38,654 nt of DNA from Halarchaeum rubridurum (GTDB taxonomy: Archaea; Halobacteriota; Halobacteria; Halobacteriales; Halobacteriaceae), in NCBI RefSeq assembly GCF_014647115.1, contig NZ_BMOO01000009.1, positions 1 through 38,654 on the forward strand, written 5' to 3'. This document shows, one piece after another, positions 13,293 through 28,569 of the stretch. Within the stretch, counting starts at the first letter, position 1. Every line of letters starts with the position of its first letter. The translations under genes were made by a program, and so were the position numbers. Under the pieces are notes generated by a model that was given only the letters and a program-made list of their open reading frames with translations, did not search any database and was not told the origin of the DNA.

Positions 13293-14219
13293 GTGCTCCG
13301 GCGTATCGAACTCGAGGTCCTCGCCACGGTCGACCGCGGCGACACGATCTCCGAACTCGCGACGAAGCTCAACCACAGCGAGAGCTACCTCTCTCGTGCC
13401 GTCGCCGACCTCGTCGAAAAGGGACTCGTCTACACGGAACGCGACGGGCGGCGAAAACGAGTCGTTCCGTCGGATGCTCGCGCCGTCGAACTCTACCGGG
13501 ACCTCGTCCGCCAGCACTCCCACATCGACTTCCCCGAACTGCTGACGGGCAAGGCACTCGAGGTGCTGTACTACCTCGACCAGCCGCGAACCGTCTCCGA
13601 AATCGCTGACCGGAGCGACAACTACCGCAACACGGTCAACCGCGTCCTCAAGCGGTTTCGTGACCGTGGTCTCGTCGGGACGGCCGACGGCCACTACGAG
13701 TTCAACGCCGACTTCGACCGCCTCCACGCGTTCGCCCGTGAACTCGCACACCAGCTGCATCGCCAGCGCCTCGAAGCCGTCGCCCCGAAGGGGACGATTC
13801 TCTGGGAGGGCTACGACGAATTCCTCGCGCAGGCCGAGAAGGAGATCGACGCAGAGGGGTTCCACGAAACCGGCCTCGCTCGATTCGCGGCCTTCGACCT
13901 CCAGTTCCTGCTCACCGGCCACCGCTACTACGTCTACTCCGAAGACCTCGACGCAGTCTCGCCGGCGGAGCTCTGCTGTCACACGCTGCTGATCGACGAC
14001 GGCAGCCGCCACCGCTCGTACTGTCTCCTCCTGCTCAGCCACGTCGACGTCGACGAGGAGGACCTCCGAGAGCAGGCGGCGAAGTATGGCCTCGAAGACG
14101 AAATCGACGCCTTGCTCCGCTACCTCGAGACGCACGGCGAGGTCGACGACGACCGTCTCCCGGAGTGGGACGAGTTCCAGGAGCTAGCGGCTGACTACGA
14201 GGTGCCACTACCACAATGA
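13293..14219 (+). CDS. winged-helix regulator, partner of nucleotidyltransferase
   Basis: 308 residues starting with GTG. Two helix-turn-helix units are visible: residues ~5-55 (ELEVLATVDRGDTISELATKLNHSESYLSRAVADLVEKGLV) and ~85-125 (GKALEVLYYLDQPRTVSEIADRSDNYRNTVNRVLKRF). A ~180-residue C-terminal part with a Tyr-rich segment (GHRYYVYSEDLDAV) may sense or bind the partner. The stop overlaps the next start by 4 bp (ATGA), so the genes are translationally coupled. The order regulator first, nucleotidyltransferase second, resembles AbiE/MNT-type toxin-antitoxin or abortive-infection modules, with this protein as the antitoxin-like partner. That role is inference. Confidence 0.75.
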   Translation: MLRRIELEVLATVDRGDTISELATKLNHSESYLSRAVADLVEKGLVYTERDGRRKRVVPSDARAVELYRDLVRQHSHIDFPELLTGKALEVLYYLDQPRTVSEIADRSDNYRNTVNRVLKRFRDRGLVGTADGHYEFNADFDRLHAFARELAHQLHRQRLEAVAPKGTILWEGYDEFLAQAEKEIDAEGFHETGLARFAAFDLQFLLTGHRYYVYSEDLDAVSPAELCCHTLLIDDGSRHRSYCLLLLSHVDVDEEDLREQAAKYGLEDEIDALLRYLETHGEVDDDRLPEWDEFQELAADYEVPLPQ

Positions 14220-15019
14220 GACCAACATTCGGACGCGAGTACATCGAGAACGAATTCCAGCGAATCAGAGACGGGCTATCTGAACCGCTCACGGTCTACC
14301 TGATCGGTGGTGGCGCGATGTCGCTGCGCGACCTCAAGGGGGCGACGAAAGACATCGACCTAGTCGTCCCGGATGGCGACGCGTACGGTCAGCTGTGGGC
14401 CGTCCTGATGGACCTCGGGTATGCGGAGGTCCAGTCGCTGGATCCAGATTATCGGGCGCTGGGGGCAACGAGCTGCGTCGAGAACGACGATGGGTGTCGC
14501 CTCGACATCTTCAACCAGCAGGTCGCGAACAAGCTCGTGCTCACCGACGGCATGCAAGAGCGCAGCGAGCCGTTCCTCGACACAGATCGACTGACGGTCC
14601 GGCTGGTCAGCAACGAGGATATCTTCCTGTTCAAGGCAATCGCAGGCCGCGACGACGACATCGAGGACATGAATATGCTCGTACAGGCCGGCCTCGATTA
14701 CGACGTCGTCCGGGAAGAACTCGAAGCCCAGATCGAACGCCTCGGTGACGATCAGTTCGCCACGTTCGCGAACGAGGCCCTAGTCGAACTCGAGGAGCGA
14801 TACGGGGTGACCACGCCGATCGAAGACCGCGTCCAGGAGCTCACGAATAGGTACTACCGGGGGCTCGAAGTCCTCCAGGCACTCGACGAACCGATGACCG
14901 TCGACGAACTGGCCACGGAACTGGAGCTGGATACCGACGAGGTTCACGACCGGATCGCGTATCTCTCAACGTTCGACCGGGTCCGTCGAGATGGCGACAC
15001 AGTCCATCCCGTGGAGTAG
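14216..15019 (+). CDS. nucleotidyltransferase (DUF6036/AbiEii-like)
   Basis: 267 residues. The N-terminal domain has the minimal nucleotidyltransferase signature: YLIGGGAMSLR (Gly-Gly loop) followed by TKDIDLVV, where the two Asp bind metal and nucleotide. A third acidic position is likely in CRLDIFN. The last ~45 residues (PMTVDELATELELDTDEVHDRIAYLSTF) form a winged helix. The gene overlaps the upstream regulator by 4 bp. Related AbiEii/MenT proteins transfer nucleotides to tRNA or protein and halt growth, so a toxin role is plausible. The extra DNA-binding domain could also make it a regulator. Confidence 0.75.
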   Translation: MRPTFGREYIENEFQRIRDGLSEPLTVYLIGGGAMSLRDLKGATKDIDLVVPDGDAYGQLWAVLMDLGYAEVQSLDPDYRALGATSCVENDDGCRLDIFNQQVANKLVLTDGMQERSEPFLDTDRLTVRLVSNEDIFLFKAIAGRDDDIEDMNMLVQAGLDYDVVREELEAQIERLGDDQFATFANEALVELEERYGVTTPIEDRVQELTNRYYRGLEVLQALDEPMTVDELATELELDTDEVHDRIAYLSTFDRVRRDGDTVHPVE

Positions 15020-15149: not shown

Positions 15150-18100
15150 GTGAACCAAGAGCTGACACCAGCGGACATTCGAACATGGGATTCAGTTTCG
15201 GCGGTCCGTCAAACGTTTAATGAGCTTGGCTTCGGCCCAAACCGCATCGATTGGTTTGGAGTCTCGAGCACTACTACAGACGATGTTTCTGAGATCAGTT
15301 TTGAATTTGAACAGGATCTATCCTGTGCGATAATCCTACAAGAGGATCTTGAAGACGCGTGGTTGGTCGGACACATTCCGAAACCAATTGGCACACCGTC
15401 GATCCGGTATCATCAGTTCGAACCAAGAGTAGATTCAAATAACCGGGCGGAACTTCGAGAGACGCTTGATCGGCTCAACGCTCTGGATCCAGAATCACCG
15501 CGCTCAAGATTTGACGCGCTCGCGAAATCTGAATTGAACAGCCGGTTTTCGAACCTGTTCTCGAACCTTATCAAGGACGTTGCGAAAAAAGTAGACCACG
15601 AGATCCCTGATTCAGCAGGAAATTCTAGGTCTGTTGCAAGATGTCTGGTTCTTTCTGCGCTGCGAGCAAAGGTAATTTCAGAAAAATCGAGTAACTCTAG
15701 TGTTAGTTTCGTTGAACGTTTTCAAAACACTGCGTTTCCCGCCTCCACCTCGGTTCCGGAGACGATCAAACCATTGCGGCAGTCCTTAAGCAATCAGGAA
15801 AATGGTTTGTCATTTGTGTCCGATGAGACGGTTCAGTTGCTCTGTGATCGATTCGAAAGTGAGTTTAACAGGTTTGATTGGTTATTGACAGACAGCGGGT
15901 GGGGTGGTTTGGATGAAGTCACCGCACATACCATCGGCGTGGCGCTTGAGCGCCACTTGACAAATAAGCAGGGGGAAACCTATCAAACGCCTGCAGAACT
16001 CACGACGAGTATCACAGCTGAAGCGGTTGAATCCGCTGTACTGGAACGAATAAACACTACTGTCTCCGAGACTTATACAGATCTCTCCGAAGTCATTGGC
16101 ACTGACCTCACGTCTGAAGCTGATCCTGCTGATACAGATCGGAGAGAATTGAACCGAGAGCTTCTCAGTATAGTTGCTACAGATATTATTCCAGACCTAC
16201 ACATTGTTGATCCAGCCATGGGAAGTGGGGTATTCCTTCATTCTGCATTAGATTCGCTCGTTCGGTTGCGGAGGTACATCGCCTCTGTCGAAAATGTCCC
16301 GACTCCCACCGATTCATACTCGTATCCTTCGGATCTAGATAGTCATGGGGAGAATTCTCACCGTGTGTGGACCACTATCACGCAGAACTTATTCGGTGTT
16401 GATATTGATCCCGAAGCCGTCTCACTGACTCGTTTCCGCCTGGAGTTAGCATATCTTTGCACCCTAAATCCGGGTGAGGATCCGATTCCGCCGCGGAGCG
16501 AATATAACTTCAAGCAAGGGAACAGTATCGTCGGCAAGCCATTTAGTTCGGATCCACCACATTGGTCAAACCAGTTGCCTCTCTCCGCATTCTTCCAAAA
16601 TGACGATCTGACATCTGAACATCCACACGGAACGGTGTCGGCACAATCGACCGCCAATGAGGTTCGTACACATCTGGAAGAGTACCGAAGTAATATTCAG
16701 TCTAATTCGAATCCACAAGTCACGATAAGAGAACAAATACGTAAAAGAACGGAGGCTATTGACCACCAGCTTGAATATAAACTATCCAATAATAGCGAGC
16801 ATAGCGATCAAGAAGATGTCGGAGATGTAGATCCTTTCCATTGGCCACTTGAATTTCCCCTTGTCATGGAACGTGGGGGTTTCGACGTTGTCTTGTTCCA
16901 TGGATCATGGTCTGAGTCTGGCCTACGCGACGCGGTCAACTCATCGACATTGGAGTTTTTAAAATCTGGGTGGCAGTATTATCTTCCCAACTCCGGTAGC
17001 TGGCGACGAACAAACGATGTGCTAGATTCGTTCTTCCTCCATCGTGCCCATGACGTCGTACGTCAAGGCGGGGTTGTCGCTTCGTTAGTTGATGCATCAG
17101 TACTGACTGCTCCCGGTTCAAGGCATATACGGCGCAGATACTTAGAAACGACAGATATCGAACGAGTAGCCACTTTTAGAAATCAAAATACCTTTGATCA
17201 GATTGATCGGAGGTTCCGTTATGCGGTTGTAGTCGCTCAAACGACGGAACAGCCGGGTACGTTCAAATTGGGATCCGGTTTCGTTACCCCGGAGGATTTG
17301 ACGGATGAGCGGAATTATTTCGAATTGGATCCTGATTTCGTATACCGATTCTCCCCGAACACACAAGCATTTCCACTTTTGGAGCGCGATATTCAATATA
17401 GGGCCTTACAGCGGTTGCTTGAAGCGCCGGTTCTCCAAGATCATGAGACCGCTGAAGGTTGGTCTATACGACCATCCGGTGAATTCAATCAAACAACAGA
17501 TAGTAAGTACATCTCAGAGGCCCCGTACGAGGCAAGTGACCCAATTTATCGGGGTAAGAACATATACCAGTATGCTTATCAGAATGTACCTGAGGCGGAA
17601 GTTAACCAGCCTGATCTCTGGACGATTCCCCAATCAACCGATCAAGGACTGTCAACTAGAGAATATTTGCGGGAGCAAAAGCGAACAGGAAATTCTGAGA
17701 AGTTGAAAGCAGAGTCACCACGAATTGTCTACCGACGGATCACCAGGAACACTAACGAGCGGAGTATGATTGCTTGTTTACTCCCATCAGACTATTTCCA
17801 TGTGAACTCGCTCCGTGGTCTCGATCCATACTTTGGCGACCAAGGGGACTTAGGGCGTCGATTAGTCCTCTTAGGTTTGTTGAATAGTATCCCATACGAT
17901 TATTTGCTACGTCAAAAAATCGCCACGTCCGTCCCGAATTATATACTATTTGAAACGCGTGTCCCGTTTGTCTCGGAAGACCACGACCTGTTTGATCCCA
18001 TCAAACACCGAGTAGGGAAATTGAACTTAGTCGGGAAGCCATTTGAAAAGGAAAAGCAGAGATTAGGTATACAGGAGCTGGGGTCAGAAGAGGCAAGAAG

Positions 18101-18281
18101 AGAAGTTCGCGCAGAAATTGACGCGGCTGCTTTCGATCTTTATGGGTTTGAGGATTCCGAAATTGTAGGTCGCGTTTTGAACGATTTCGGATTTGTTCGC
18201 GATCCAAGAGTGATGGATTCAGAGTACTTCGAGCTCGTTCGATCCGCCTTCAAGAATGGTGATTATCTCGATGAGTCGTGA
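15150..18281 (+). CDS. Eco57I/PglX-like methyltransferase homologue lacking NPPY
   Basis: 1043 residues from a GTG with a ribosome binding site (GGAG, 15136-15139) about 10 bases upstream. The architecture is that of large N6-adenine methyltransferases of type IIG/BREX. A helical N-terminal region is followed by GETYQTPAELTT (where active relatives have GAYYTP), motif I D354PAMGSG, and LFGVDIDPEAVSLTRFRLEL. Then come NFKQGNSIVGKP and a specificity domain with RIVYRRITRNTNERSMIACLLP (from R858). The catalytic motif IV, expected as GNPPY after FDVVL, reads F583-HGSW587, so adenine methylation should be lost while SAM binding may remain. The gene is markedly AT-richer than its flanks, indicating transfer. 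The downstream HEPN gene overlaps its 3' end. Confidence 0.85.
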   Translation: MNQELTPADIRTWDSVSAVRQTFNELGFGPNRIDWFGVSSTTTDDVSEISFEFEQDLSCAIILQEDLEDAWLVGHIPKPIGTPSIRYHQFEPRVDSNNRAELRETLDRLNALDPESPRSRFDALAKSELNSRFSNLFSNLIKDVAKKVDHEIPDSAGNSRSVARCLVLSALRAKVISEKSSNSSVSFVERFQNTAFPASTSVPETIKPLRQSLSNQENGLSFVSDETVQLLCDRFESEFNRFDWLLTDSGWGGLDEVTAHTIGVALERHLTNKQGETYQTPAELTTSITAEAVESAVLERINTTVSETYTDLSEVIGTDLTSEADPADTDRRELNRELLSIVATDIIPDLHIVDPAMGSGVFLHSALDSLVRLRRYIASVENVPTPTDSYSYPSDLDSHGENSHRVWTTITQNLFGVDIDPEAVSLTRFRLELAYLCTLNPGEDPIPPRSEYNFKQGNSIVGKPFSSDPPHWSNQLPLSAFFQNDDLTSEHPHGTVSAQSTANEVRTHLEEYRSNIQSNSNPQVTIREQIRKRTEAIDHQLEYKLSNNSEHSDQEDVGDVDPFHWPLEFPLVMERGGFDVVLFHGSWSESGLRDAVNSSTLEFLKSGWQYYLPNSGSWRRTNDVLDSFFLHRAHDVVRQGGVVASLVDASVLTAPGSRHIRRRYLETTDIERVATFRNQNTFDQIDRRFRYAVVVAQTTEQPGTFKLGSGFVTPEDLTDERNYFELDPDFVYRFSPNTQAFPLLERDIQYRALQRLLEAPVLQDHETAEGWSIRPSGEFNQTTDSKYISEAPYEASDPIYRGKNIYQYAYQNVPEAEVNQPDLWTIPQSTDQGLSTREYLREQKRTGNSEKLKAESPRIVYRRITRNTNERSMIACLLPSDYFHVNSLRGLDPYFGDQGDLGRRLVLLGLLNSIPYDYLLRQKIATSVPNYILFETRVPFVSEDHDLFDPIKHRVGKLNLVGKPFEKEKQRLGIQELGSEEARREVRAEIDAAAFDLYGFEDSEIVGRVLNDFGFVRDPRVMDSEYFELVRSAFKNGDYLDES

Positions 18282-19845
18282 AGACTTCATTGCGGATGCT
18301 TTCAAAGAATTGAAGGAAATTATAAAGAGCCAAGAGGATGGCTCTGTCGAAATCACTCCGGGTGAAGACCGGTTAGGTGAGATTCTAGTCACTGGTACAG
18401 AAAACTATCCGGTACTAGTTGGCGCGATTGCTGCGAATTATATTGATACCGGCGACCAGCCAGAACATCTTGATCTTGCTGCGACGGTGGAGGGCTACTC
18501 TGCAGATCGCTGGGAACGTCTAGTCCATCGGGCACTAATGGATGTCGTACAGAGATATCAACGCCAACGGCCGCAAGAGGAGGGGCAGGAAAGTGCTGGC
18601 AACACATCTTCGGAGCAATCTGATTTGGATAGCAAATTGATGGATATAGCGGGGATGGCTGGAAGTGATGATCGGGAGTCGAATAGCGGAGAAGATTCGC
18701 CATTTGTTAACCCTTCAGACCAAGATGTAGTTGAACGGTTTGAATCTTCTTTAGAAGATTTAGTTGAATCTCTTGATGAACGGGAATTTGAATTCTATTT
18801 CCCATTGAATATTGGGGAATCTGTACGAGACCAGTTTTTGGTTGATGGTGTAGAAATTGAGCGTGTGGAGAATTCAGAAGTTGCATCCTTATTCGATTCA
18901 GCAGCTATTGATGACATTCTATCAGGGACAGAGACTTTTGAGGATCTACTCGAGAGCCTTGGTCTTCACCCAACCCCATACAATTCGAATTGGTACTGGC
19001 GGTGTACCATAACGGCTCCTTCCTCTGAAGAGGGTGTCACGTCAGCCCAGGACATAATCAACATTCTACTTGGGAAGATAAACTACTCGATTTTCTATAA
19101 CTCTGACTTATTGCGAGAAGAGACGCTAAATGAATTGCTGGGTTCAAATCTTCCGGATGAAACTGTGATTGTCGAGAGACCGGCGTTCATATTGGTTTGT
19201 GACGATGGAGATCTCTTAGACGCGGAGATCATGTCCGCCGAATTTGGGAACCCCGTGGAACTAGACCACCAATTCCAGAGCACATACAAAGAATTGGGGC
19301 TTCAGAAATTCCCGCCTTCCTACGGTCGTCCGACAGAGTATACCCTCGCATCTGCGTTGCAAGGATTCATTTCAGCTGCAGTTGCCAATTACCCTCGTGA
19401 GTCATTTTTTGCCTATTGGAGAGCACTAGAAGATCTTTCTTTCACGGACCCTGAGGACAGCAGCAGCGTGGACGTTCTTAAACGAACTGGCCGTCTTTGC
19501 TCACTGGATAATATCACCCCTCTCTATAAACGGTTACTTGAAACTAGAAACGCGCTCGTTCACTCCGGTGGAAGTCCAACAATTACCGCGAGGGACACGA
19601 TCGTCCTGCGTGAAATCTTCTTAGATGCCTTTCCTGAGGTTCGCGACTTAGAGCGTCATACATTGAGTAAAAGTAAGAACACGAATATGAATTATGTCCT
19701 CAAATATTTAGAAGACTCCAATGATATGGATCGAGTTAAAGATGATGTTAATGATAACATAGATGATCTAAACAACAGGATTGAGGAGAATAAGCGGAAG
19801 ATTGAAGCGATAGATGCCTTGGAGAGTTGGAAAGACCTACAATAA
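18271..19845 (+). CDS. HEPN-domain protein, putative RNase effector
   Basis: 524 residues. The ATG at 18271 is preferred to the one at 18256 because a GGTGA lies 9 bases upstream. Both overlap the preceding gene, giving tight coupling. Residues ~1-350 are unrecognised: an acidic linker around 100-150, then a beta-rich part (FYFPLNIGESV...; WYWRCTITAP). The C-terminal region from ~355 (ASALQGFISAAVANYPRESFFAYWRALEDLSF) through LYKRLLETR426NALVH431SGG looks like an ApeA/Apea-like HEPN domain. RN..VH is the R-x4-6-H signature of HEPN RNases. A coiled coil (DDLNNRIEENKRKIEAID) ends the protein. It is AT-rich like its partner. A plausible role is an RNA-cleaving effector released by the DNA-sensing partner. 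Confidence 0.75.
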   Translation: MSREDFIADAFKELKEIIKSQEDGSVEITPGEDRLGEILVTGTENYPVLVGAIAANYIDTGDQPEHLDLAATVEGYSADRWERLVHRALMDVVQRYQRQRPQEEGQESAGNTSSEQSDLDSKLMDIAGMAGSDDRESNSGEDSPFVNPSDQDVVERFESSLEDLVESLDEREFEFYFPLNIGESVRDQFLVDGVEIERVENSEVASLFDSAAIDDILSGTETFEDLLESLGLHPTPYNSNWYWRCTITAPSSEEGVTSAQDIINILLGKINYSIFYNSDLLREETLNELLGSNLPDETVIVERPAFILVCDDGDLLDAEIMSAEFGNPVELDHQFQSTYKELGLQKFPPSYGRPTEYTLASALQGFISAAVANYPRESFFAYWRALEDLSFTDPEDSSSVDVLKRTGRLCSLDNITPLYKRLLETRNALVHSGGSPTITARDTIVLREIFLDAFPEVRDLERHTLSKSKNTNMNYVLKYLEDSNDMDRVKDDVNDNIDDLNNRIEENKRKIEAIDALESWKDLQ

Positions 19846-24174: not shown

Positions 24175-26220
24175 TTAGGTCGGATTTGGAATTTGACTCT
24201 TCGAGAGCTTTTCGATTACATCCCGTCCAGACAGTAGCTGTACCTCTACACCTTTTGTTTCCATAGCAGCCCGCCTTGCGTCCTGCGTAAATCCAGACGA
24301 TGTTGCGACCACGCAGACATCTGCGCCTTCTTGTACTGTCGCACCGATTGCGTTTCGGACCTCTGGACCAGACACGTTCCCGGCCCCGTTAGGATCGTAG
24401 CGTTTGGCCTGAATAGCGATTGTTCGCTGGCCGTTGCGTGCAATAGCGTCAATTCCTCTATCTCCCGATTGCTGTGTGACCTGGACGTCGTATCCATTCT
24501 TTTGATAAAGCTGTCCCAGAACCTCTTCAAACTGCGTTGGCGTTAATGAAAGCAGATCCGATGGCTGCCACGTCGAGTCAAGCTGGGCCATTACTTCATC
24601 CCTGATTGATTTGATGCGAGTGTAGTCGTTAGTGGCGCGGGCTTGGTCAACCCGATTCTGGATATCAGTCGGGTCGATAGAACTGTGAGACAAGTCCGTA
24701 GTTGCGAACATCTGTGCCACTTCCTGCTCGGCGACCCATGCCTCTGCCTTCACCATCGCCTTCTCGATGGCATCTAGATCGCCCTCCCGAACCGCATTAC
24801 AGGCGTCCTCGATCGTTGTATCCTGTGCTTGGCCAGCTGATAAGGGATGAGACGACCCACTGTTGCTTCGTAGTGGTTCGGTCTTAGCTGCGAAATCTTC
24901 AACCGCCTTTGCTTGCTCGCAGAATTGATCGAGAGTTCCTTCAGTCAAGATGGTATCAAGACGTTCCCAGATCGCTGTTGGCTCAACCACTTGGCTATCG
25001 ACACGAACAGCCAGCTTACTTTTCCCCGAGTCTGCCGGACTACTACTGGGCTGACTCCACTGTTCGACGGTTGCTCGGGCGTCCTCGAATCGATTTATCT
25101 CTGCAGCAGCCTGTTCAAGCTGGTCATCTTCCGAGGACGGAAAGTCAGCAAGGGTTTGGTCAAGCAGCTTGGCCCCATCGTAGCTTTGGCCACGAATTCT
25201 AACTTCAAAGCCAATATCAATCCCCGTAAGCACGTCATTTAGATCGCTCGCGGTTGCGGGATCGTTGTCACTCCACGTCTGGGCTGCGAGTGACCGAACC
25301 TTTGTCCTTGTAACCGGTAACTCCTCGAAAGGGAGTCTTGAGAGCGTCTGGTTCAGTACTGCGAACTGTTCCAGCCTCTGACTCCAATCCTGAAGATTCT
25401 CACGCGGAGCTGCTTGAATAGACTGTTCAACTGGTGATCCCGCGCTGGCTGTAGTCTCTGTGTCGAACTTGTCGTCGAGTCTCTGTGCTTTGGAAAGGAG
25501 ATCCTGGCGCCATTGTCGATCAGCGTAGCGCTGCACCGGTTCGGCGAGACGGTTACGAACCGACTGGTTGAACGTCGGTAGTGTTGCACCTAGGAGAACT
25601 ATTGCAGCGAGCAGTCCCCATGCCCGTGGCCGTTCCCAGAACGGTCGATATACTGTGTAGGTTCGAAGTATCTCAAAACGATTGGTTCCAGCGTTTGACG
25701 CCGCGTAATAGTATAATGTCGCCTCCGTAGGTCCGACCCCTTTCGGTGCGATCGACGCTGGCAAGTGTAGTACTCGTTCGAATGTCGCGTATTCGCCCTG
25801 CTCGTATGTGGAAGTGTTCGCAAAGAGGACTGTCCCCTCTCTGGCCGCCCGTTCGGGTCGCCATGATGTCGGTGCGGCGATAACGGCGACTTCAAGCGGT
25901 GCTCTTGGCGGGCTCTCTGTGTTGGCATATGGATTCCCCCACCCGGTCTGCATCCGTATCCGGACACTTCCGTTTGTAGCGACGCCAGTTGTCGGAGTCG
26001 TGATTTGGATATCGAAAGTCCCGTACTCGGTTTCTCCTCCTGTAGTCGTATATTCAAGCGGTACTGACGTTGAGCGCGTTACAGGATCAACTTGGTCAAA
26101 CGTCCCCGTAACGGGGACTGAATAGACGAGCAGACATAGTCCGAGGACGACGAGGATAGCCCGTGTCGCTTTGAAAGGAAAACCGGGTAGGTATTCGGAA
26201 CGGTCCGTGGGGATATCCAT
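24175..26220 (-). CDS. membrane-anchored Mrr-type nuclease with extracytoplasmic domain
   Basis: 681 residues. The first hydrophobic segment (residues ~20-38) and a second (RAWGLLAAIVLLGATLPTF, ~200-218) bracket a ~160-residue beta-rich, Thr-rich domain that should face outside. Residues ~220-560 are helical and charged, probably coiled coil. The C-terminal ~110 residues form an Mrr/PD-(D/E)xK domain: LTPTQFEEVLGQLYQKNGYDVQVTQ, D591 in GDRGID, and the Q604-A-K606 catalytic strand (TIAIQAKRYDPN), followed by GADVCVVATSSGFTQDA. Qx-K is the usual variant in Mrr-like type IV enzymes, which cut modified DNA. Joining an outward domain to a cytoplasmic nuclease suggests a surface-triggered defence or damage role. 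It is less GC-rich than the flanking genes, so probably acquired. Confidence 0.8.
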   Translation of the reverse strand: MDIPTDRSEYLPGFPFKATRAILVVLGLCLLVYSVPVTGTFDQVDPVTRSTSVPLEYTTTGGETEYGTFDIQITTPTTGVATNGSVRIRMQTGWGNPYANTESPPRAPLEVAVIAAPTSWRPERAAREGTVLFANTSTYEQGEYATFERVLHLPASIAPKGVGPTEATLYYYAASNAGTNRFEILRTYTVYRPFWERPRAWGLLAAIVLLGATLPTFNQSVRNRLAEPVQRYADRQWRQDLLSKAQRLDDKFDTETTASAGSPVEQSIQAAPRENLQDWSQRLEQFAVLNQTLSRLPFEELPVTRTKVRSLAAQTWSDNDPATASDLNDVLTGIDIGFEVRIRGQSYDGAKLLDQTLADFPSSEDDQLEQAAAEINRFEDARATVEQWSQPSSSPADSGKSKLAVRVDSQVVEPTAIWERLDTILTEGTLDQFCEQAKAVEDFAAKTEPLRSNSGSSHPLSAGQAQDTTIEDACNAVREGDLDAIEKAMVKAEAWVAEQEVAQMFATTDLSHSSIDPTDIQNRVDQARATNDYTRIKSIRDEVMAQLDSTWQPSDLLSLTPTQFEEVLGQLYQKNGYDVQVTQQSGDRGIDAIARNGQRTIAIQAKRYDPNGAGNVSGPEVRNAIGATVQEGADVCVVATSSGFTQDARRAAMETKGVEVQLLSGRDVIEKLSKSQIPNPT

Positions 26221-26290
26221 ATCTGATTATTATCTGATTACCAGAGCAGTCTGGTAATTCTGGCGGTAATAACTGTGCTTGGGTCGCGAA

Positions 26291-26401
26291 TCACTCCTCC
26301 CGGTCGTTGTATCGCTCCAGTTCACGACCGACCTTTTCGATGGCCTCGACACCACGTTCGAGGAGCTGGTGGGTGGCTCGCGCCAGTCGAAGCGTCTCCA
26401 T
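26291..26401 (-). CDS. 36-aa helical protein coupled to the DUF6166 gene
   Basis: ATG at 26399-26401, reading METLRLARATHQLLERGVEA then IEKVGRELERYNDREE and a stop at 26291. The start shares one base with the stop of the preceding minus-strand gene (TGATG), so translation is coupled. It is a single charged amphipathic helix with coiled-coil spacing. No family is known to me. Confidence 0.6.
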   Translation of the reverse strand: METLRLARATHQLLERGVEAIEKVGRELERYNDREE

Positions 26402-27087
26402 CAGTGCTCCCCCTCTGTGGGTTCGATGAGGTCGTTGCTCGCTTCGGCGAGTTCCCGGATTACCCGTTCTACGTCAGCATCCTCGGGAACCGTCCGATGT
26501 GCGAGCGGTGCAGGATATGCACGGTCGCCCTGGCTACAGAGAACGACCAGCCACTCGTCGCTTCCATCCCCGAGTACGATATAATGGTCCTGATCAGCGC
26601 GCTGGAAGACCCGCTGGTCTGGGCGGGAGACGGTTCGCCAGTTCTCGGGAAGCGTCGGCGACGGCTGTCCGCCGTCGGGGAGCGCGACGACGTCGTCGGT
26701 AAGGGTCGCTATCGCGGCGTCGATCTCCTCGCCGGTGAGGTGCCAGCACGCCGCGGCACCGTCGCACTCCAGCTGTGAGATCACCTGATTCCGGAACGCG
26801 ATGTAGTGCTCACGGGCGACCTGCTCATCGTCGTAATAGTCGAGCAGGAGTGCGCAAGCGAGCTGGGCGGGCCCGCTACCACTGTATCCCCACTCGAACC
26901 CGCTCGGACTGTGGTTGACGAGGTCCAGACTGCGCTCGAGGGAGAGTCGCCGATGTTCCGAGAGGTTCAGCACGACGGCTTGGCCGTCGACGCGGAAGCC
27001 TACGTACTCGACTGCGTCTCGGTGAGACTGTGCGGGCGATGCTACTGGAACCGATTCCGAACTGGCCATAGGTACATTTCCGTTCAT
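26401..27087 (-). CDS. DUF6166 domain protein
   Basis: 228 residues from the ATG at 27085-27087 (MNGNVPMASSES). A second Met at 27069 is possible, while the longer open frame upstream is the shadow of the divergent Mrr gene. Residues ~25-110 match what I know as DUF6166: VEYVGFRVDGQAVVLNLSEHRRLSLERSLDLVNHSPSGFEWGYSGSGPAQLALLL, ending ..YIAFRNQVISQL. The GFEWGYxGSGPAQLA segment is its hallmark. The C-terminal half is acidic and unrecognised. Function is unknown. It is common on haloarchaeal plasmids. Leader copy 5 lies about 30 nt upstream, between this gene and the divergent Mrr gene. Confidence 0.8.
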   Translation of the reverse strand: MNGNVPMASSESVPVASPAQSHRDAVEYVGFRVDGQAVVLNLSEHRRLSLERSLDLVNHSPSGFEWGYSGSGPAQLACALLLDYYDDEQVAREHYIAFRNQVISQLECDGAAACWHLTGEEIDAAIATLTDDVVALPDGGQPSPTLPENWRTVSRPDQRVFQRADQDHYIVLGDGSDEWLVVLCSQGDRAYPAPLAHRTVPEDADVERVIRELAEASNDLIEPTEGEH

Positions 27088-27204: not shown

Positions 27205-28569
27205 ATGGCTGTACTGGACGATCTCTCGGGGTTCGAGTTCGAGGACGTGATGGAGGACGTGTTCCGCAACCTCGGCTATGAGAACGTCCGCCAGGCCGAC
27301 CGCACGGCTGACGAGGGTCGCGACGTCATCATGGAAGAGGTCGTCGACGGCACGCGGCGTGCGATCATCGTCGAGTGCAAGCACACGGGGACTGTCGGGC
27401 GGCCGGTCGTCCAGAAGCTCCACTCGGCGATCGCGACGTTCGATTTCGACGGCCCGAAACGCGGAATGGTCGTCACGACCGGCCGGTTTACGAACCCGGC
27501 TCAGGAGTACGCCGACCGACTCCAGCAGAACGACGACCCACACCCAATCGAACTGCTCGACGGCGAGGACCTCCGGGAGATCGCCGACGAGATCGGCCTC
27601 GACCTCTACAACGGGCGCATCGAGATACTCTGCGACGAGACGCTCCGCCCGTACGACCCGGCCGCCGACGTCGACGCGCCAGTCACGGAGGCGTTCCGCG
27701 ACATCGAGAACATCGAAGCCGCCGACCTCCCAGAACCGCACTCATCGGTGACGTTCCGCCCGGTGGTCGCGGTCACCGCGGACACGAACGCCGTCTTCGA
27801 GACGTCGGTGGGCGTCATCCACCGGATCAACGACCGGACGCGATTCGTCGCCCACGCCGAACGCGGGCAGCCGCAGGTCGTCGACGAAGATGTCGCAACG
27901 CTGGTCACCGAGAACCTCCACGCGACGGTCGACCTCGACGCCGAGCAGTTCGGCGAGGTGTTCGACGACGTCGAGGAGCGCCGGTTCGGACAGACTCAGA
28001 CGGAGTACAAGGAGTGGGCCGTCGAGCGCCTCCAGCAGCACCACACGACGACGGTGACCTACACCGGCGACAACAACGTCACGTACAACAAGACCTGTGA
28101 GCCGAACCGCTCGGACATCTCTGTCCAGTTGATCGAACCAGTGTACCTCCCCGAGGTTCGACACACCACCGGCATCCAGGAGTACACCTACCCCTACGAG
28201 TACTACGCGGCAGGCCCGTCACGAGTGACCGACGAGGACGGCATTCATCGGTGTGTCCACTGTGACGCGAGCGGCGTCGACGAGACGTACACGTACTGTC
28301 CGAACTGTGGGGCGATCGCCTGCACCAGCCACACCAAAACGGAGCGGCTGGAAGGCGAGCCGGTCTGTACGGGCTGTGCGGTGACCGAACGGTTCGCGTT
28401 GAAAACGAAGTACTTCTACGACGAGGAGAACCTCGAAGCCTTCCGCGAGGAGTACGCCGAAATGCCGCTCCACGAAAAGGCGATGGAGAACAAGTGGCTG
28501 GCCGGGGGGAGCGTTGTCGCGACGCTACTGCTTGTCGTCGGACTCCTCGTCATCAGCGGCATCATCTGA
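27205..28569 (+). CDS. Mrr-type nuclease with zinc ribbon and C-terminal membrane anchor
   Basis: 454 residues from the ATG at 27205 (MAVLDDLSGFEFEDVMEDVF). The N-terminal ~120 residues are an Mrr-like PD-(D/E)xK domain: D40 in DEGRDVIM, E57-C-K59 in IIVECKHTG, then GRPVVQKLHSAIATF and MVVTTGRFTNPAQEYADRL. A central ~220-residue region is unrecognised. A zinc ribbon follows (CVHCDASG ... YCPNCGAIACTSH ... CTGC), and the protein ends in a single hydrophobic helix (WLAGGSVVATLLLVVGLLVISG). This implies a tail-anchored nuclease facing the cytoplasm. It is divergent from the DUF6166 gene. The GC-rich composition matches the backbone, so it is a resident of the element. Restriction of modified incoming DNA is plausible. 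Confidence 0.8.
   Translation: MAVLDDLSGFEFEDVMEDVFRNLGYENVRQADRTADEGRDVIMEEVVDGTRRAIIVECKHTGTVGRPVVQKLHSAIATFDFDGPKRGMVVTTGRFTNPAQEYADRLQQNDDPHPIELLDGEDLREIADEIGLDLYNGRIEILCDETLRPYDPAADVDAPVTEAFRDIENIEAADLPEPHSSVTFRPVVAVTADTNAVFETSVGVIHRINDRTRFVAHAERGQPQVVDEDVATLVTENLHATVDLDAEQFGEVFDDVEERRFGQTQTEYKEWAVERLQQHHTTTVTYTGDNNVTYNKTCEPNRSDISVQLIEPVYLPEVRHTTGIQEYTYPYEYYAAGPSRVTDEDGIHRCVHCDASGVDETYTYCPNCGAIACTSHTKTERLEGEPVCTGCAVTERFALKTKYFYDEENLEAFREEYAEMPLHEKAMENKWLAGGSVVATLLLVVGLLVISGII

Follow-up and report, generated by a model that had tools for sequence, protein, structure and literature searches.

On balance, we regard the gene at positions 24175 to 26220 (minus strand) of a plasmid-like contig of Halarchaeum rubridurum as probably encoding a plasmid-borne haloarchaeal defence nuclease that is a single chain tethered to the membrane and whose outer domain would sense entry. 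Destruction of invading DNA at the cell border is its most likely purpose. The window, i.e. the whole stretch of 38,654 nucleotides that was analysed, comprises the entire contig 9 of an assembly of 2.8 Mb in 25 contigs and resembles plasmid DNA (family B DNA polymerase, Orc1/Cdc6, transposases). The gene is a single open reading frame for a protein of 681 aa with the order TM helix 1, outer beta domain, TM helix 2, helical stalk and Mrr nuclease; its ATG lies at 26220, two codons past the preceding in-frame stop. An earlier note, made from the letters of this DNA, had described one polypeptide at this place, and the frame, strand and coordinates proved to be exact. All parts of the chain described below are likewise given as positions on the minus strand.

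Five full-length orthologous copies were found: one in genome G035 (99% identity), two on one plasmid of Halorientalis marina, one in genome G161 and one in Haloferax marisrubri (88%). In a sixth orthologue, from Natrinema gari, the frame is shifted by one base near codon 136. When the groups of 88% identity are compared, substitutions are mostly synonymous over the whole chain, with dN/dS values of 0.17 for TM helix 1, 0.08 for the outer domain, 0.29 for TM helix 2, 0.27 for the stalk and 0.06 for the Mrr domain, which indicates purifying selection from end to end. The earlier note had itself considered that the homologues might be split into separate genes and joined here by a frame error; the unbroken copies, together with the ratios of 0.08 for the outer domain and 0.06 for the nuclease, show that the gene is not such a fusion. 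The same two values imply that selection acts on the outer domain nearly as strongly as on the nuclease. In RefSeq, the H. marina protein begins with a GTG at residue 229 and the annotated record is thus devoid of the whole membrane module, which is thereby hidden from annotation-based surveys; following this annotation, a shorter soluble product may be made from the same GTG. A search of 391 Halobacteria, genome contigs, viral contigs and plasmids for the module of two TM helices and outer domain found it in five genomes and on the plasmid of H. marina, and nowhere else. On the H. marina plasmid, the segment of about 20 kb bearing this gene is present in two copies (L082 and L083) with an identical match pattern.

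The membrane module was assessed by hydrophobicity, with insertion energies that are approximate values from a simplified biological hydrophobicity scale, and by AlphaFold2 (AF2). TM helix 1 (residues 17-38, 26107 to 26172) reaches a Kyte-Doolittle value of 2.29 and an insertion energy of -2.65, coincides with an AF2 helix at residues 17-34 and is predicted to be a signal anchor with the N-terminus inside. TM helix 2 (residues 199-217, 25570 to 25626) reaches 1.55 and -1.02, coincides with an AF2 helix at residues 201-213 and is followed by R-rich residues, in accordance with the positive-inside rule. The segments 21-37 and 199-215 stand far apart from all others, the next-best insertion energy being +4.4. 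The extracytoplasmic domain between the helices (residues 39-196, 25633 to 26106) is predicted to be a beta-sandwich with eight strands and almost no helix in AF2 models. It is free of cysteines and contains two N-glycosylation sequons, N83 and N135, both retained by the diverged orthologues. The topology that the earlier note had read from the sequence is hence also the predicted one, with two strong TM segments and a beta domain between them. The AF2 models are weak, both for the outer domain (pLDDT 56, pTM 0.51) and for the whole chain (mean pLDDT 46, used for secondary structure alone), and the folds of outer domain and stalk are accordingly uncertain. A family assignment of the outer domain by fold was tried and rejected: the best VIA-align hit, RbmA (Z 8.2, rmsd 3.0, 109 aligned), is tied with the sandwiches of arrestin and VPS26, a generic result. 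By sequence, the outer domain has no match in the PDB, a ligand-binding signature could not be recognised on it, and NCBIfam yielded no match.

Residues 218-545 (24586 to 25569) form the predicted cytoplasmic stalk, which is helical in AF2 secondary structure and fast-evolving, with the dN/dS of 0.27 given above. The layout proposed in the earlier note stood with regard to both TM helices, the beta-rich outer domain and the Mrr domain, but its 'long coiled coil' is, judging from the models, more aptly described as a series of many separate helices. Towards the end of the stalk follows a juxta-nuclease segment (residues 503-556, 24553 to 24714) with an invariant W551, supported by profile A4 (see below) and by hhalign of the 681-aa protein against the PQQ group of relatives (58 columns, E 1.2e-4); it is common to the Tat-PQQ-propeller relatives and, via these, to relatives with six TM helices or a helix-hairpin-helix (HhH) region. 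The Mrr_cat nuclease domain itself (residues 557-670, 24211 to 24552) matches PF04471 with E 1.5e-25 (1.2e-26 in the genome search), i.e. with 90 bits against a curated cut-off of 21 and over profile positions 2-113 of 115. Its catalytic motif D591 ... Q604-x-K606 (24403 to 24450), with E565 upstream, was compared among 13 divergent relatives, in which D591, K606 and E565 are invariant and Q604 is nearly so. The domain that the earlier note had called intact-looking on account of D591 and the QxK at 604-606 is thus intact in its motif, and it would probably cleave DNA. The N-terminal winged-helix DNA-binding domain of Mrr gave no Pfam match in this protein; its N-terminus consists of the module of two TM helices and outer domain.

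The best argument for a functional architecture comes from relatives in which other front modules precede the same stalk end and nuclease. They were collected with profile A4, which covers the last stalk segment and the Mrr domain in 210 positions and includes the 681-aa protein as one row. With scores of at least 148 bits, the profile detects 28 loci, distributed over 26 of the 391 Halobacteria, and it detects none in the phylum sample outside Halobacteria at the strict limit of E <= 1e-35; the 681-aa protein matches it continuously with 230 bits (positions 13-208 of 210). A search with the whole chain also recovers proteins sharing the pre-nuclease segment, and a search with the N-terminal module recovers orthologues only. 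Homologues of the same architecture, for which the earlier note had suggested a search, exist among the orthologues; the other relatives share only the stalk end and the Mrr domain. Eight of the 28 loci, from seven genomes, are of a propeller type composed of Tat signal, PQQ propeller, hydrophobic segment, stalk and Mrr domain. The front of Tat signal and PQQ beta-propeller was read in L042, L043, L045, L046, L047, L048 and L052; in the five propeller-type proteins scanned, the propeller matches PF13360 with E 1e-16 to 1e-30. The helical stalk of this type spans about 290-360 residues, and L043 alone has a clear TM segment, those of the others being Gly/Ala-rich and weak. Pfam detects a C-terminal DnaJ domain in L042, L045 and L047, and the tail of L048 looks alike by eye; a terminal DnaJ in several of these proteins makes a cytoplasmic nuclease likely. 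An attempt to infer topology within the PQQ group from the density of N-glycosylation sequons gave no signal. Propeller-type genes are also found on chromosome-sized contigs (G132:C1, G246:C1), away from the plasmid backbone, and have DUF1156/HmaB-like methylases, a DrmC-like PLD protein and a QatA/PifA-like KAP NTPase as neighbours. Where an annotation was seen, it reads merely 'restriction endonuclease'.

Further front modules are six TM helices ahead of the stalk in L044, on a plasmid of Natronococcus occultus, two TM helices in L061, and in L049 and L051 an apparent HhH region, recognised by eye, without TM helices. Homology of the entire stalk across these types was considered and rejected, as hhalign aligns only its last 58-100 residues. 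A tree of the stalk-Mrr region yielded no branching order and no indication of the ancestral outer module. The combination of an exported or membrane module with the same stalk end and nuclease has thus been assembled more than once, or has been exchanged. Varying outer parts, such as the Tat-exported PQQ propeller or the multi-TM regions, are what would be expected if specificity lay in that part. The earlier note's proposal that a nuclease within the cell is coupled to a sensor on its surface appears plausible and is strengthened by these relatives with their different exported domains. A stalk-Mrr protein of 347 aa is also encoded on a Halarchaeum plasmid (L114:4641-5684), between two serine/threonine kinase genes and a chaperonin-family gene.

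Upstream of the nuclease gene lies plasmid backbone. A DUF6166 protein (26401 to 27069, minus strand; PF19663, E 6.5e-26) is followed by a 36-aa ORF (METLRLARATHQ...; 26291 to 26401, minus strand), which overlaps the DUF6166 stop codon. Both are kept upstream of every orthologue, yet they are also found on plasmids without the nuclease: DNA like the DUF6166 region occurs in 86 plasmid records, and the H. marina record alone has the nuclease. Between the 36-aa ORF and the ATG, 16 bases before the latter, we found a perfect 9-bp inverted repeat, ATTACCAGA-N4-TCTGGTAAT (26237 to 26258). It is the sole copy in the genome, and its arms are identical in six of six orthologue loci, with diverged flanks; the simplest reading is that of a candidate operator. 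The slot between the DUF6166 gene with its small ORF and the downstream backbone genes has other content in all five other plasmids inspected, namely a GmrSD type IV restriction system (PADLOC Orf5/HEC-06) in Natrinema versiforme, a Mom-like modification gene in Halobacterium hubeiense, uncharacterised genes in Halorubrum trapanicum, and in Natrinema J7-2 and Halobaculum a protein of 682-695 aa, the N-terminus of which looks like PD-(D/E)XK by eye, with no confident family. A recognised defence domain is missing from three of these five alternative occupants. Hence, the nuclease is cargo of a variable slot that is sometimes used for restriction or modification, and sharing the slot with such genes supports an anti-invader role.

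Several neighbouring or slot-borne genes merit mention in their own right. The 682-695 aa proteins (L116:5318-7363 and L120:5318-7402; motif GRIDLIAE...GVELKRA in L116) are candidate new defence genes. The divergent neighbour of the nuclease gene (27205 to 28569, plus strand) encodes 454 aa with an N-terminal Mrr_cat domain, a zinc-ribbon-like middle and a C-terminal tail-anchor TM helix, a second membrane-bound Mrr type, of which frames of about 456 aa are very common in haloarchaea. Further away on the plus strand, a 1043-aa Eco57I-type methylase (15150 to 18281), which resembles type IIG and DrmMI models, is overlapped by a gene for a 529-aa protein without family (18256 to 19845), possibly forming a restriction or DISARM-like pair. 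At 13293 to 15019, likewise on the plus strand, an HTH protein and a nucleotidyltransferase (DUF6036 in H. marina) overlap by four bases in a toxin-antitoxin-like arrangement that is kept on the H. marina plasmid.

But, how might such a protein act? We suggest that the chain begins inside the cell, crosses the membrane, places the beta-sandwich of about 160 residues into the space below the S-layer and crosses back, so that the helical stalk of about 330 residues would end in an Mrr-type PD-(D/E)XK nuclease in the cytoplasm. Tethering would hold the nuclease away from the host chromosome and at the site where viral or conjugating DNA enters. The outer domain may meet a virion, a mating partner or a disturbed envelope, and contact could alter the stalk or cluster neighbouring chains, whereupon Mrr domains would pair, or form a higher oligomer, and cleave the DNA as it enters. 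In this model, the sensing step and the recognition of a ligand are parts that we infer. More tentatively, and with doubts prevailing, we extend it to a group of modular haloarchaeal transmembrane receptor-nucleases, in which exchangeable exported domains, such as a beta-sandwich or a PQQ propeller, or multi-TM modules, linked by a shared stalk end, would allow an invader met by the outside domain to trigger a cytoplasmic Mrr domain across the membrane.

Pure localisation at the DNA entry site in the manner of the bacterial nuclease SNIPE, or plasmid exclusion, fits the observations as well as sensing of virus or envelope does. In a strictly SNIPE-like case, the module of TM helices and outer domain would serve only to hold the nuclease in place, at membrane proteins or where DNA enters, and no signal would cross the membrane. 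SNIPE indeed acts by localisation and its N-terminal regions vary strongly (PMC13190303), L044 and L061 have just TM helices ahead of the stalk, and the Mrr protein encoded next door is held by a tail anchor. An outer domain of 160 residues that is conserved nearly like the nuclease (dN/dS 0.08), however, exceeds the needs of an anchor, and eight relatives carry a complete beta-propeller behind a Tat signal, so that we judge localisation without signalling to be somewhat unlikely. Competition between plasmids appears unlikely to a slightly greater degree. Here, the nuclease would destroy DNA that comes in from other cells through conjugation or fusion, and the outer domain would recognise a mating partner instead of a virus, in line with the location of most orthologues on the same plasmid backbone, with the MPF_T typing of H. 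marina and of the five inspected backbone plasmids, and with an ArdC-like anti-restriction gene in the same segment. The PQQ-propeller relatives on chromosome-sized contigs do not sit on this backbone, though, and what else occupies the slot resembles general restriction or modification.

Mrr-type nucleases are able to damage host DNA, which counts in favour of an envelope-stress toxin that, once activated, would cut the chromosome of its own cell in abortive infection or killing. Tight control, as suggested by the conserved, genome-unique palindrome beside the start, and the toxicity of SNIPE without its TM helix (PMC13190303) point in the same direction, but an antitoxin-like partner specific to the nuclease gene was not found, since the DUF6166 gene and the 36-aa ORF belong to the backbone and are present without the nuclease; we hold a toxin to be improbable. 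It would be very surprising if the protein were an ordinary cytoplasmic Mrr protein, with its hydrophobic segments buried in a soluble fold or its true start at residue 229. The RefSeq start and the low AF2 confidence could be read this way, yet purifying selection acts strongly on residues 1-228, where most changes are synonymous, and the copies are full-length and in frame. Burial of both segments, a case raised in the earlier note, is also spoken against by insertion energies of -2.7 and -1.0 compared to +4.4 for the next segment. We thus retain the membrane-tethered defence nuclease with an entry-sensing outer domain as our preferred reading.

To our knowledge, the only known cases of nuclease defence localised at the membrane are a few bacterial systems, described recently, and descriptions of haloarchaeal Mrr proteins with TM helices and outer domain, or of Tat-PQQ-Mrr proteins, were not found in the literature searched. 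The earlier note had called the arrangement unusual, which was partly wrong, since haloarchaea commonly possess Mrr proteins associated with the membrane; plausibly new is a membrane-tethered nuclease defence variant in archaea that carries a large outer domain within its one chain. Archaeal defence at the cell surface is little understood, and one chain with a domain outside and a nuclease inside would, if true, be its simplest version.

In a review, Zorya, Kiwa and SNIPE are placed together as defences that target DNA and are localised at the membrane (PMC12904381). SNIPE, a membrane-bound nuclease with diversified N-terminal regions, cleaves phage DNA while it is being injected and is kept off the chromosome by its TM helix (PMC13190303). 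By prediction, the 681-aa protein shares with it the single chain with N-terminal TM helix, cytoplasmic middle and C-terminal nuclease as well as relatives with variable N-terminal regions. SNIPE, however, has DUF4041 and a GIY-YIG nuclease, neither of which has a Pfam match in the 681-aa protein, and has one TM helix as a rule, in contrast to an Mrr domain and two TM helices around a large outer domain in an archaeal host. Zorya likewise couples membrane sensing to a protein with an Mrr-like nuclease, ZorD (PMC11890865), and of the PADLOC ZorD1 model only the C-terminal Mrr part matches (profile positions 903-1064 of 1071). Type I Zorya (ZorABCD) differs by a separate ZorAB proton motor and the SNF2 helicase of ZorD; genes for ZorA/ZorB or MotAB-like proteins are absent from the 20 window genes examined with Pfam and the 20 examined with PADLOC. 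As the defining features of SNIPE and Zorya are missing, the 681-aa protein at most works like these systems; it is not a member of either, nor homologous to them as a system. Kiwa resembles it in tying membrane-embedded infection sensing to a DNA-acting part, but uses two proteins, KwaA and KwaB, the latter of which binds DNA without cutting it (PMC12904381). With Mrr-type type IV restriction enzymes (PF04471), it has the nuclease domain and catalytic motif in common, a membrane module and stalk taking the place of their N-terminal DNA-binding domain. The haloarchaeal proteins composed of Tat signal, PQQ propeller, stalk, Mrr and often a terminal DnaJ domain share the juxta-nuclease segment and nuclease with an exported domain in front, but have an unrelated outer domain, a Tat signal instead of a signal-anchor start and a weaker TM segment. 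These PQQ-propeller and DnaJ relatives provide a ready comparison set.
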